A stretch of DNA of 64,000 bases from Cryobacterium sp. Y50 (GTDB lineage Bacteria; Actinomycetota; Actinomycetes; Actinomycetales; Microbacteriaceae), in NCBI RefSeq assembly GCF_002929805.1, contig NZ_PJJM01000093.1, positions 36,586 through 100,585 on the forward strand, written 5' to 3'. Below are positions 76-54,426 of the stretch, piece after piece. The translations under genes were made by a program, and so were the position numbers. The stretch's first letter is position 1; every line of letters starts with the position of its first letter. The notes below the pieces were generated by a model that saw only the letters and a program-made list of their open reading frames with translations, had not been told where the DNA came from and ran no database searches.

Positions 76-1184
76 CGGTACGGCGCGACAACCACTTCAA
101 CCCGCTGAAATTCTTTGAGATCGGAGTAACCGGTGGTCGCCATCGACCGACGCAGCGCGCCGATCAGGTTGGCGGTGCCGTCGGCGACTGGAGCCGGACC
201 GTACAGGATCTCTTCGAGCGGGGCCACGGTGCCGACCTCGACGCGCTTGCCGCGCGGCAGCTGCGGGTGGTGCGCCTCGGCGCCCCAGTGGAATCCGCCG
301 CCGGGGGCATCCGTTGCCCGAGCGAGCGCAGTGCCGAGCATGACGGCGTCGGCGCCGCAGGCGATCGCCTTGACAATGTCGCCCGACGTGCCGAGGCCAC
401 CGTCGGCGATGACGTGCACATAGCGCCCGCCGGACTCGTCCATGTAGTCGCGGCGCGCTCCGGCGACATCCGCTACGGCGGTGGCCATTGGGGCGTGGAT
501 GCCCAGGGTCGCGCGGGTGGTCGACGCGGCTCCCCCGCCGAAACCGACCAGAACGCCCGCGGCGCCGGTGCGCATGAGGTGCAGGGCCGCCGTGTAGGTG
601 GCTGCGCCGCCGACAATGACGGGAACGTCGAGCTCGTAGATGAACTTCTTGAGGTTGAGCGGTTCCTGGTTCTGCGAGACGTGCTCGGCTGAAACCGTCG
701 TACCGCGAATGACGAACAGGTCGACGCCGGCGGCGACGACGGTTTCGTATAGTTCCTGGGTGCGCTGGGGCGAAAGGGCTCCGGCCACGGTGACTCCGCC
801 GGCGCGAACTTCGGCCAGGCGGGCGGTGACGAGCTCGGGCTGAATCGGGGCGGAGTACATCTCCTGCATGCGCGCGGTCGCCTTATCGGCGGGCAGGCTG
901 CGAATTTCGGCGAGCAGCGGCTCGGGGTTCTCGTGCCGGGTCCACAAGCCCTCAAGGTCGAGCACGCCGACGCCGCCGAGCTGGCCCATCATGATGGCCG
1001 TGGTCGGCGAGACGACGGAGTCCATCGGGGCGGCCAACACCGGAATGGCGAACTGGTAGGCGTCGATGGTCCAGCCGACCGACACGTCTTCCGGGTCGCG
1101 GGTGCGCCGACTGGGCACCACCGCGATGTCGTCGAAGGCGTACACGCGGCGGGCGCGCTTGGAGCGGCCGATCTCGATTTCCAT
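66..1184 (-). CDS. GuaB3 family IMP dehydrogenase-related protein
   Basis: This 372-aa protein has the (beta/alpha)8 fold of IMP dehydrogenase but no CBS domains, as in the actinobacterial GuaB3 family. Visible family segments are the N-terminal FDDIAVVPSRRTRDPEDV, AAPMDSVVSP near residue 50, and glycine-rich phosphate-binding segments such as GGGAAST and ADGGLGTSGDI. The ATG start gives the typical length. It lies directly downstream of guaB on the same strand (92 bp gap), suggesting shared guanine-nucleotide control. The family's reaction is poorly defined, so a plain guaB name is not justified. Its stop codon lies in a tandem repeat. Confidence 0.93.
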   Translation of the reverse strand: MEIEIGRSKRARRVYAFDDIAVVPSRRTRDPEDVSVGWTIDAYQFAIPVLAAPMDSVVSPTTAIMMGQLGGVGVLDLEGLWTRHENPEPLLAEIRSLPADKATARMQEMYSAPIQPELVTARLAEVRAGGVTVAGALSPQRTQELYETVVAAGVDLFVIRGTTVSAEHVSQNQEPLNLKKFIYELDVPVIVGGAATYTAALHLMRTGAAGVLVGFGGGAASTTRATLGIHAPMATAVADVAGARRDYMDESGGRYVHVIADGGLGTSGDIVKAIACGADAVMLGTALARATDAPGGGFHWGAEAHHPQLPRGKRVEVGTVAPLEEILYGPAPVADGTANLIGALRRSMATTGYSDLKEFQRVEVVVAPYRVN

Positions 1185-1276
1185 GGTTCCAGTTTAGAGG
1201 GAGCCACCGACATCCCCTTTTCAAGCGGATGCTCGGCCCCGGCGCAGGCAGACCGCGCTGGGGCCTTGAGGCAGGC

Positions 1277-2779
1277 TTACCGACGGTAGTTCGGGGCCTC
1301 GACCACGATCTGCACGTCGTGCGGGTGCGATTCCTTGAGCCCGGCGGGCGTGATGCGCACGAACTTGCCCTTTTGCTTGAGCTCGGCGATAGTGCGGGCG
1401 CCCACATAGAACATGGACTGGCGCAGGCCGCCGACCAGCTGGTAAGCCACAGCGGCGAGCGGGCCGCGGAACGGCACCTGACCCTCGATGCCCTCGGGAA
1501 TGAGTTTTTCGTCGCTGGGAACGTCGTTCTGAAAGTAACGGTCTTTGGAATAGGACGTCTTTGTGCCGCGGGTCTGCAGCGCGCCGAGCGAACCCATACC
1601 GCGGTAGGTCTTGAACTGCTTGCCGTTGACGAACACGAGTTCGCCGGGGCTTTCGGTGCAGCCCGCCAGGAGCGAACCGAGCATGACGGTGTCCGCGCCG
1701 GCCACGAGGGCCTTGGCGATGTCACCAGAATACTGCAGCCCACCGTCCGCGATAACCGGAACACCGGTCTCCCGTGCAGCCAACGAGGCCTGATACACGG
1801 CGGTGATCTGGGGAACGCCGACACCGGCCACGATGCGGGTAGTGCAAATCGAGCCGGGGCCCACGCCGACCTTGATTGCGTCGGCACCCGCGTCGATGAG
1901 CGCCTGGGCGCCCGAGCGGGTGGCGACGTTTCCACCGATCACGTCGACCTCGGCGAAGGCTTTGTCCGATTTCAGACGACGAATGATGTCGAGCACGCCG
2001 GCACTGTCGCCGTTGGCGGTGTCGACCACAAGCACGTCCACCCCGGATTCGAGCAGGGCGGTCGCGCGCTGCCAGGCATCACCGAAGAACCCGATGGCCG
2101 CGCCGACGCGCAGGCGCCCGCCGTCGTCCTTGGTGGCGAGGGGGTATTCCTCGCTCTTGTCGAAGTCTTTCACGGTAATCAGGCCGGTGAGCTTGCCGTT
2201 GGCGTCGATCAGGGGCAGCTTTTCGATCTTGTGCTTGGCGAAGATCGCGAGGGCGTCTTCGGGAGCCATCCCGACCTTGCCGGTGATCAGCGGGGAGGTT
2301 GTCATGACCTCGCGCACCCGGGTGAGCGCCTTCTTGGCGTGCGGAACGAAGCGCATGTCGCGGTTGGTGATGATTCCTACCAGGATGCCGTCACTGTCAA
2401 CGACCGGCAGCCCGCTCACGCGGAACTGGCCGCACAGGGCGTCAACCTCGGCCACTGTGGCGTTGGGCGAAGTGGTGACCGGGTTGGTGATCATGCCGGA
2501 TTCGCTGCGCTTGACCAGATCCACCTGTTCGGCCTGATCATTGATCGACAGGTTGCGGTGCAGAATTCCGAGCCCCCCCTCACGGGCCATGGCGATCGCC
2601 ATGCGGGTCTCGGTCACGGTGTCCATAGCGCTGGAGAGCAGCGGCAGCGACACATCAATGCGCCGGGTCAACCGGGATTTGGTGACCGCCTCGCTCGGAA
2701 TGACGTCGGTGTGCCCCGGCAGGAGCAGCACGTCGTCGTAGGTGAGCCCGGTGAATCCGAACGGATCTGGCTGATCCAT
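1277..2779 (-). CDS. guaB: Inosine-5'-monophosphate dehydrogenase
   Basis: GuaB oxidises IMP to XMP with NAD+, the committed step of GMP synthesis in the cytosol. The 500-aa product is full length. It starts with the N-terminal barrel segment [10 protein letters not shown], has a CBS pair at about residues 95-215 (TSPNATVAE..., GLITVKD), and the active-site loop GPGSICTTR with catalytic Cys312. [15 protein letters not shown] and GSLLAG bind the IMP phosphate, and the flap region follows to the C-terminus. AAAGGGG lies 4 bp before the ATG. It is divergent from livH and probably co-transcribed with the GuaB3 gene. Confidence 0.98.
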
Positions 2780-52897: not shown

Positions 52898-53680
52898 GTG
52901 AAAAACAAGCGCCACCAACGCATTCTGCAAATTCTCGAAGCCTCGGAGCGGGTGGAAGTGTCGGAATTGGCGCGTTTGCTCGAAGTCTCTGAGATGACAA
53001 CCCGTCGCGACCTCCTGGAGCTTGAATCCACCGGCTCGTTGCGACGGGTGCATGGTGGCGCCGTGCGCGCACTGGGGCGAGCGTTCGAACCGACCTACCG
53101 TTCTCGGTCACTACAGTCGACGGAAACGAAAACGGCTATCGCGGCGGCGGCCGCACTCTATGTGAACGATGGGGATGCAATTGCACTCGACGTTGGCTCT
53201 ACGGTGTTGCCCATGGTGGATGAGCTCGTCGGCCGCAGCAATCTGACGATCGTGACCTCGAATCTGCGCGTCGCCTGGGCCGTGGCCACACATCACGCAC
53301 TCGACCGCTCTATCCGTCTCATCATCTCTGGGGGCGTCGTTCGCGCAGACGAGCTCAACATGACGGGAAATTCTGCCGTGGCGAACTACCGCACCATGCG
53401 CGTTGACAAAGCTTTCATCGGTCTGGGCGGGCTGACCGCTGACGCCGGTGCAACGGATTACAACCTGGAAGATGCTGAACTCAAACGCGTTCTGATCGAT
53501 TCGGCACGCATGGTGATCGCCCTGGCCGATTCGTCGAAGCTGGGAAACGAAACCTTTGCGCTGGTCGCTGATCTCAACCAAATTGATGTGCTCATTACAG
53601 ATGACAACGCCGACCCAGACATTCTTTCCCAACTGCGCACAGCGGGGCTCGAAGTAGTCGTGGTCAAAGCCGCGCCGTAA
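52898..53680 (+). CDS. DeoR-family transcriptional regulator 2
   Basis: This 260-aa regulator has an N-terminal helix-turn-helix (KRHQRILQILEASERVEVSE, then MTTRRDLLELESTGSLRRVHGGA) and a sugar-phosphate effector domain (AIALDVGSTVLPMV, ISGGVVRADELNMTG, FIGLGGLTADAGATDYN). It is divergent from btpA-FGGY-M29 with a GlpR-like operator pair between, so it most likely represses that operon and itself. It is a different branch from DeoR1. Confidence 0.94.
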   Translation: MKNKRHQRILQILEASERVEVSELARLLEVSEMTTRRDLLELESTGSLRRVHGGAVRALGRAFEPTYRSRSLQSTETKTAIAAAAALYVNDGDAIALDVGSTVLPMVDELVGRSNLTIVTSNLRVAWAVATHHALDRSIRLIISGGVVRADELNMTGNSAVANYRTMRVDKAFIGLGGLTADAGATDYNLEDAELKRVLIDSARMVIALADSSKLGNETFALVADLNQIDVLITDDNADPDILSQLRTAGLEVVVVKAAP

Positions 53681-53796
53681 GCTCGGCGACCACCAGCTCA
53701 CTATGTTCCCGCGCCTCATCCACGTCGGCGGCACCTCACACGCCGAGCGCAATGCCGACAAGGTGCTGCGTTGCTATGGGCAGGCCCCGGTGCCCG

Positions 53797-54426
53797 TCAC
53801 CCCTCCATCTCTTCGTACCGTACTTCCACACGCTTGGACTCAAGCAGGTTCAGCACGGGCGTGTGCATGACTTCAAGCGCTCCATACTTTGCATCCGCGC
53901 CAATGAAGTAGAACCGAGTCGTCGAGGTCTCTCCCGGAGCCAATTCCACCGCCAGCTGACTCACCGGATACCCTGCTTCACTCGCCGGATGATACGGCAT
54001 GGTCTCGCTCCCGCGCGTCACTTCCAGATTCTGTGAGTCAGGCGGTCCATAGGCCAGAATGATCGTCTTGATGTTGACCTGCACCACTCCGAACGCGCCC
54101 GGCCCGGTAACCGCTCCGCCTCAGCGACACGTCCGCGTCGAGCAGAGCCGTGTTCATCAGCGCCAGGTCGACCGCGTAGTACGGTCGCCCGTCGTTGCGA
54201 CAGGCCACCTCGCCCAGGTCGATGCGCGTATCGAGATGAGTGTTCATCTTCGCGCCGGTAGCATCATTGAAATACACCCCAATTCTTTCAGCGGATGCGT
54301 CACTCACCGGCAAATCGCCGGTCAGCGTCGTGCCCGCGAACAGCCTCTGATCCTTATCGTGGGCGTTCCACAACAGAATACGACGCTCAAAGTCACCGGC
54401 CCCAGAATCTCTCTTGAAGAATCGGC
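53797..54426 (-). pseudogene. Frameshifted C-terminal fragment of a DUF4012-type protein
   Basis: Two overlapping minus-strand frames together read as the C-terminus of a DUF4012 surface protein. The first (from about 54426 to 54130) gives FERRILLWNAHDKDQRLFAGTTL and AERIGVYFNDATGAKMNTHLDTRID. The second (from about 54115 to 53797) gives VTGPGAFGVVQVNIKTIILAYGPP and EAGYPVSQLAVELAPGETST. They are offset by one base near 54115-54125. The N-terminal 400 or so residues are absent; the SDR gene abuts the break. No gene was recognised in 53681-53796. Confidence 0.75.

Follow-up and report, generated by a model that had tools for sequence, protein, structure and literature searches.

A candidate DNA uptake sequence, and its dialects, in Cryobacterium and other Microbacteriaceae

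The DNA uptake sequences (DUS) of the Neisseriaceae form dialects across the family and accumulate in the core genome, with about 1900 copies in Neisseria meningitidis and in N. gonorrhoeae, and inverted pairs of the word at terminators are common in genomes with DUS dialects (PMC3630211). This 2013 paper describes the need for uptake sequences as unique to Neisseria and the Pasteurellaceae. Amongst the Actinobacteria, Micrococcus luteus requires tad-like genes for transformation and has two tad islands that 'complementarily contribute' to the pilus, and the occurrence of tad together with comEA and comEC is, according to the authors, frequent in the phylum (PMC4322843, PMC6370729). Here we describe a word, ARCGGATGC (where R is A or G, giving the spellings AGCGGATGC and AACGGATGC), that recurs in a stretch of 64,000 nucleotides from the actinobacterium Cryobacterium sp. 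Y50 (family Microbacteriaceae; contig NZ_PJJM01000093.1, positions 36,586 to 100,585), referred to below as the window. Judging from its sequence properties, we think that ARCGGATGC, with a further C favoured at its end, is, more likely than not, a DNA uptake (self-recognition) sequence of the Microbacteriaceae in its Cryobacterium dialect. The wider proposal, to which we give slightly better than even chances, is that the family as a whole uses an evolving self-recognition code for uptake via a Tad/Flp system, including several dialects, a genus divided between two preferred spellings and a species that has switched to a palindrome. This would be the first such code known to us outside the Neisseriaceae and Pasteurellaceae and the first in single-membrane bacteria; among the matches listed in a search of open-licence PMC papers, there was no uptake sequence or ARCGGATGC-type word for Actinobacteria.

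The window contains exactly 31 matches to ARCGGATGC, 16 on the plus strand and 15 on the minus strand, with every coordinate reported by the original prediction (a by-eye reading of the letters) reproduced and none besides. In 100 dinucleotide-preserving shuffles of the window the mean number of matches was 1.88 and the maximum 6. The surplus of the heptamer CGGATGC that had also been noticed is real (50 in the window against a shuffle mean of 21.1), although heptamers beyond the 9-mer copies number 19 rather than about 17. Across the whole genome (4,403,245 bases in 105 contigs), ARCGGATGC occurs 1951 times (973 and 978 on the two strands) and the reversed pattern 148 times (72 and 76).

Markov models were applied to samples of the genome. 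At order 4, in 243 kb, AGCGGATGC was found 66 times against 5.2 expected and AACGGATGC 44 times against 3.6, and at orders 2, 3 and 4 the word or a fragment of it heads the 7- to 10-mers of this sample. The original prediction had proposed a whole-genome count at order 5 or higher as its own check; in 564 kb at order 5 there is an excess of both spellings (164 against 43.9 and 104 against 30.3), and the lists for k = 8, 9 and 10 are headed by the motif or part of it at order 5 as at order 4. The excess in the same sample is small at order 6 (164 against 110 and 104 against 75), with a motif fragment leading at k = 9 only, and a maximal-order test of the 64-kb window alone did not single out the word at k = 8–10; this weakening arises because such models absorb the signal carried by subwords. 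The abundance of the word, at 1951 copies to 148 of its reversal and with the excess seen at orders 4 and 5, is well away from a Markov expectation, and its over-representation is a direct observation.

A sample of 564,237 bases (12.8% of the genome), containing 268 copies, was used to examine the anatomy of the word. An artefact of codon pairs or of composition has some appeal, since high-GC coding DNA is rich in GGATGC and GGCATC, and since most of the order's other families have GGATGCC at about 1–4 times the frequency of its reversed control. Against this, all six strand-frame combinations are enriched, by 3.4- to 86-fold over a within-gene permutation of synonymous codons, and copies are equally dense in called genes (0.469 per kb) and outside them (0.471 per kb); in the window, copies had already been noticed in genes and gaps alike. 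The words of other dialects, described below, are likewise enriched in most frames. Codon pairs acting in a single reading frame, which the original prediction had named as one of two findings that would count against it, do not account for these copies; codon-pair bias is rejected for the Cryobacterium word by the six-frame test, and an artefact of this kind appears to us extremely improbable.

Within the 268 copies, position 2 is G in 164 and A in 104, whilst at position 10 C is favoured (152 of 268) and A avoided (10), and no strong consensus is apparent in the flanks beyond the word. Of the single-base variants, the one with T at position 3 and those in which position 9 is A, G or T are enriched about fivefold (in the 243-kb sample), and those changed at positions 4–7 occur at 0.3 to 2.4 times expectation, mostly without enrichment. 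Evenness of spacing is mixed, with a coefficient of variation of 0.82 on contig C104 (P 0.017) and of 1.09 on contig C99 (P 0.83). As there is little conservation in the flanks, the word is not a mobile repeat, and a dispersed mobile repeat or terminator family was rejected on this ground together with the lack of an excess of inverted pairs (see below).

Chi and KOPS are strand-biased words that are over-represented chromosome-wide and can vary between lineages. The Cryobacterium word could, on these last two counts, be a site, like Chi or KOPS, to which a protein of recombination or chromosome handling binds, or a site for a nucleoid protein, and a possible strand polarity of the word in Agreia, where 7 plus-strand and 21 minus-strand copies were counted by hand among the matches listed for 600–920 kb of one contig, would suit such a site. 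The Cryobacterium word, unlike Chi and KOPS, is not strand-biased: split by local GC skew (a proxy for the replication strand), the 268 copies divide 133/135, and the orientations are 57/55 in 240 kb of contig C104 and 29/30 in C99. Polar Chi- or KOPS-like sites are disfavoured by the skew result, as is the polar form of the recombination signal offered as one alternative by the original prediction. A non-polar chromosomal protein site is nevertheless one of the main rivals to an uptake sequence, though we regard protein-binding sites of any of these kinds as quite unlikely.

The density of the word is uneven. In the window, 27 copies lie in the first 39 kb (0.69 per kb) and four in the last 25 kb (0.16 per kb), the roughly fourfold fall previously described (P = 0.0014, a post hoc value, the 39-kb boundary having been picked in that first reading). 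The sparse part, from 39 to 64 kb, has a GC content of 0.60 and a third-position GC content (GC3) of 0.70, compared with 0.64 and 0.80 in the rest. Its tested open reading frames (ORFs) match Pfam families for an FGGY kinase, an aldehyde dehydrogenase, an enolase-like protein, a DctM transporter, an ABC permease, a short-chain dehydrogenase and a hydroxyisobutyrate-type dehydrogenase. In a search with five candidates scored per genome, run without a core-stretch control, one 2.8-kb piece of this part was matched over its full length in none of the 56 further Cryobacterium genomes and had partial matches in 24 of them, the longest of about 1.2 kb at 70%. To judge from its sequence, the sparse part looks like accessory DNA, and the suggestion that the drop in density marks younger DNA is supported for the window by the lower GC and GC3, by the way in which density follows GC in the genome sample (see below) and by this search; as a general rule it fails on the 42-kb block of contig C104 described below.

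Over 109 windows of 5 kb from the sampled genome, density rises with GC content (Spearman 0.51), from 0.05 per kb below 58% (four windows) and 0.16 at 58–60% through 0.33, 0.44 and 0.58 to 0.72 above 66%, and contigs C103 and C102 (56 and 58% GC, 22 kb) have a single copy between them. Phages of a related genus were compared with their host genus through the shorter form GGATGCC. In four Microbacterium phages (about half of each genome, three of the four being Dismasvirus on one host) there are 23 copies in 87 kb (0.26 per kb), with 22 in coding sequence against a null of 17.2 (1.28-fold), whereas 16 named Microbacterium loci (314 kb, with M. nanhaiense included and the phages' own hosts left out) contain 433 (1.38 per kb), with 330 in coding sequence against 110 (2.99-fold). 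The scarcity in low-GC DNA and in these phages is, in both cases, directly observed.

Conservation of the word was assessed by aligning 123 kb with genome G049, at 84% identity, which on account of its equal counts is taken to be that of PH29-G1; PH29-G1 and Cryobacterium sp. Y57 are also the sources of the named proteins nearest to the GlmM of the window (95%). Sixteen of the 40 sites of the Y50 genome are identical in PH29-G1 and 19 of the 40 still match the motif, whereas only 21.6% of same-phase flanking 9-mers are identical (P = 0.0065 for the 16 sites). Positions 3–9 are 93–95% identical and flanking bases 83%.

ARCGGATGC is found 353 to 2198 times per genome across 57 Cryobacterium genomes, and those low in it favour SACGGATGC. 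The ratio of the ARC to the SAC form is below 1 in 28 of the 57, between 1 and 2 in nine and at least 2 in 20 (at least 3.5 in 18). Across 199 genomes of the family, GGATGCC is between 0.9 (G107 and G176) and 25 (G113) times as frequent as its reversed control, and reaches about two per kb in G113.

Leading words were scored elsewhere in the family against a synonymous-permutation null, using samples of 30–280 kb in surveys of 14 and of seven sets (both surveys took in M. nanhaiense and, in part, PH29-G1). Most of the family members sampled have leading words that are related to one another. The leading or near-leading word is ACGGATGCC in Leifsonia flava, CGGATGCC in Terrimesophilobacter and M. 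flavescens, GGATGCC followed by T or G in Humibacter and M. mangrovi, GGATGCCA in Microbacterium sp. ACRRU, GGATGCGC in Microcella, CGGATCCG in M. nanhaiense, GCAGGATC in Frondihabitans and, more weakly, GGAGGCGC in Frigoribacterium. In 17 tests of a word in a set, most frames showed enrichment of the dialect words, as did the DNA outside called genes, though more thinly there for ACGGATGCC in G113 and for CGGATGCC in Terrimesophilobacter; for GCAGGATC in Frondihabitans and GGAGGCGC in Frigoribacterium the enrichment extends to all six frames. The palindrome CGGATCCG has 134 sites in 161 kb of M. nanhaiense (coding 0.85 per kb against a null of 0.10), where GGATGCC is below its null (coding 0.23 against 0.33 per kb), and represents either a switched dialect or a word like HIP1, the highly iterated palindrome of cyanobacteria. 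No leading dialect word emerged in the samples of Curtobacterium (in which GGATGCC is not enriched) and G107, and 30 kb of G128 contained only nine copies of AGCGGATGC against 1.1. As separate observations, CACCGGTG is over-represented in Okibacterium ahead of a modest AGCGGATGC signal, and in Frigoribacterium GGAGGCGC is densest outside called genes (2.12 per kb), GGAGG overall being rarer than the codon null.

In other families of the order the signal is mostly weak. Among 296 genomes of the phylum (292 of them from other families), the largest non-family count of ARCGGATGC, 287, comes from a genome of 9.7 Mb that has 347 hits for the control. A hand count over 297 genomes of the order puts GGATGCC at five or more times its reversed control in 20 of 23 family members and three of 274 others, the highest non-family ratio being 6.6 (G644). 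Some members of families f72 and f2 reach ratios of 3 to 6.6 and, on this sequence pattern, may carry a weaker or older form of the word. The f72 genomes G644, G657 and G799 have GGATGCC at 5–6.6 times the reversed control.

Genes for machinery of the kind that M. luteus uses in transformation are present in Cryobacterium, with comEC and TadE matches in all 57 genomes. In the Y50 genome, leuS, comEA (with SLBB and HHH_3 domains) and comEC (Competence and Lactamase_B) are adjacent and score above Pfam cut-offs, the NCBIfam whole-protein models comE and ComEC_Rec2 matching below theirs. A Tad cluster on contig C44, near a prfB-like gene (by eye), includes a T2SSE ATPase, two T2SSF proteins and a TadE protein supported by Pfam, plus a Flp-like pilin identified by eye; the TadA model falls below its NCBIfam cut-off. 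The second Tad/Flp cluster, on contig C82 beside a topA-like gene, is a by-eye reading apart from its TadE match.

Taken together, the neutrality of the word towards frame, strand and the division into genes and gaps, its conservation in a relative of the same spelling, its scarcity in low-GC and phage DNA and the drift of its spelling favour an uptake sequence, and amongst the alternatives put forward by the original prediction an uptake-like signal is the best supported. The word shares with DUS a copy number far above Markov expectation (in the samples), occurrence in both orientations, all frames, genes and gaps, dialects between related species and a host that encodes competence machinery and, as far as sequence can tell, it would work like one. 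What we infer is recognition during uptake, a receptor and a drive. In outline, a machine made up of the Tad/Flp pilus, ComEA and ComEC, or a partner protein at the cell surface, would bind word-bearing fragments preferentially, on either strand. Imported fragments would recombine with the chromosome, and chance mutations that create or improve the word would be preferentially copied back. The word would accumulate to one per ~2 kb, DNA from outside the clade would stay poor in it and, as the preference of the receptor drifted, so would the spelling, giving rise to dialects.

A number of results weigh against an uptake sequence. We found no uptake experiment for any member of the Microbacteriaceae among the open-licence papers listed. 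Inverted pairs at terminators, which are a typical trait of DUS lying outside the functional definition, are not in excess here: 11 neighbouring pairs of copies lie within 60 bp in the 564-kb sample, against eight expected. The presence of comEC in 195 of 199 family genomes, including G107 and G176 with no excess of GGATGCC, means that this gene does not discriminate between genomes with and without the word, and as a discriminator it was set aside as useless. The conservation described above is uneven, positions 1 and 2 (0.68 and 0.80) being less conserved than the flank (0.83), and against G010, which prefers the other spelling, only two of 17 sites are identical (flank 14.3%), so that conservation above flank level was seen only with the relative that shares the spelling. 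ARC-type genomes, too, have an excess of SACGGATGC over the control (397 against 44 in Y50), and the spelling groups of Cryobacterium are therefore preferences and not exclusions. The words GCAGGATC and GGAGGCGC have little in common with GGATGCC, phage Min1 on its own has five coding GGATGCC against a null of 1.5 (3.3-fold) and the possible polarity in Agreia belongs here also.

The distribution of the word along contig C104 counts on the same side. The part aligned with PH29-G1 has 0.33 copies per kb and the remainder 0.60. The alignment leaps from 36.8 to 79.3 kb of C104 over only 1.4 kb in PH29-G1, indicating that a 42-kb block either is missing from PH29-G1 at the syntenic place or is located elsewhere. 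This block has normal GC and about 0.57 copies per kb (its 40–75 kb part has 20 copies in 35 kb), and at the end of the contig, from 185 to 240 kb, there are 28 copies in 55 kb with no match in the PH29-G1 DNA compared. The depletion therefore goes with low GC and does not extend to non-shared DNA in general. The normal density of the 42-kb block would be explained if it were exchanged among word-using relatives.

The same block fits a process acting on all resident DNA, such as methylation or repair, and this brings in the other main rival: an iterated word akin to HIP1, accumulating through the bias that a modification or mismatch-repair enzyme with its specificity would put on mutation or selection. 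Like HIP1, the word of M. nanhaiense is palindromic; GGATG and GGATCC resemble enzyme sites, and phage Min1 has an annotated cytosine methylase gene, so that methylases do occur in this setting. Most dialect words, on the other hand, are non-palindromic and of eight or nine letters, low-GC DNA is depleted in the word and the pooled partial phages have the Microbacterium form at close to its null (1.28-fold, with Min1 at 3.3-fold on five copies) in spite of the cytoplasm that phage and host share. We consider this explanation unlikely.

Turning to the individual copies in the window, the ORFs that hold them were named by eye, except for the Pfam-supported histidine kinase. Within genes, AACGGATGC occurs at 307..315 (minus strand) in an IMPDH-like ORF, at 13308..13316 (minus) in a tsaD-like ORF shared with a AGCGGATGC copy at 13999..14007 (plus), at 16759..16767 (plus) in an alr-like ORF shared with AGCGGATGC at 16790..16798 (minus), and at 20681..20689, 23367..23375 and 34249..34257 (all plus) in glmM-, truA- and pstB-like ORFs, respectively, whilst the copy at 28921..28929 (minus) adjoins an rpoA-like ORF. 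AGCGGATGC lies at 14998..15006 (minus) in a tsaB-like ORF, at 38857..38865 (plus) in the histidine kinase ORF and, between called genes, at 1224..1232 (plus), 37659..37667 (plus) and 37691..37699 (minus). Further AGCGGATGC copies are at 3656..3664 and 11159..11167 (plus) and at 18673..18681, 35636..35644, 36756..36764 and 37394..37402 (minus), with AACGGATGC at 4552..4560, 25148..25156 and 34850..34858 (minus). The sparse region has AGCGGATGC at 41128..41136, at 49370..49378 (between called genes) and at 54290..54298 (the last copy) and AACGGATGC at 44228..44236, all on the plus strand; 39990..64000 is the motif-poor stretch read as accessory DNA.

Inverted pairs are formed by AACGGATGC at 15582..15590 (plus) with AGCGGATGC at 15595..15603 (minus), and by AACGGATGC at 9041..9049 (plus) with AGCGGATGC at 9054..9062 (minus), the left and right arms of a hairpin with an 18-bp stem (9025-9078; −41.7 kcal/mol, z −8.1). 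The short ORF that holds this hairpin has a weak, below-cut-off periplasmic-binding match that ends at residue 113, and is possibly a truncated gene. At the left edge of the window (1-74) there is a perfect tandem array of the 16-bp unit GCTAGTTCACACCGAC (4.6 copies, 100% matches), and words similar to it appear among the order-6 10-mers of the 564-kb sample.

The preference of some bacteria for their own DNA, and the origin of the words concerned, have been studied in two Gram-negative families. If the word does serve in uptake, it would provide a third, independent case, one that offers numerous genomes, several dialects and hosts that are simple environmental bacteria, and such a case would allow one to test whether uptake bias alone builds words. 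A Tad/Flp system would then have to recognise specific sequences, and the word could be of use in transforming Cryobacterium, Leifsonia and Microbacterium. Should it not serve in uptake, a drifting word of seven to nine letters at up to ~2 per kb would still need explaining.

Of the systems with which the word can be compared, HIP1 resembles it in being highly iterated, and in sharing its palindromic form with the M. nanhaiense word, whereas the Cryobacterium word is non-palindromic. The uptake signal sequence (USS) of the Pasteurellaceae has a density similar to that of the Cryobacterium word, and extended flanking AT tracts that are not seen in the Cryobacterium flanks; word and lineage are unrelated. 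Alike are its 9-letter core and the existence of two versions within one family (PMC3630211). Micrococcus luteus has, in common with Cryobacterium, two tad clusters together with comEA and comEC, though no uptake word is mentioned in the paper describing them, whose main text contains neither 'uptake sequence' nor 'sequence specific' (PMC4322843). The Neisseriaceae DUS differs in its word and has a sequence-specific receptor, the minor pilin ComP, for which a counterpart in Cryobacterium is postulated; here the hosts are Gram-positive Actinobacteria with Tad/Flp pilus genes and no excess of inverted pairs, and avoidance of all non-shared DNA is not seen, the non-syntenic DNA of C104 being normal in density. 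In other features that the cited account of the Neisseriaceae describes, the two are alike: some 2000 copies of a word of about ten letters, lying both in and between genes, the spelling of which changes from one related species to another (PMC3630211).

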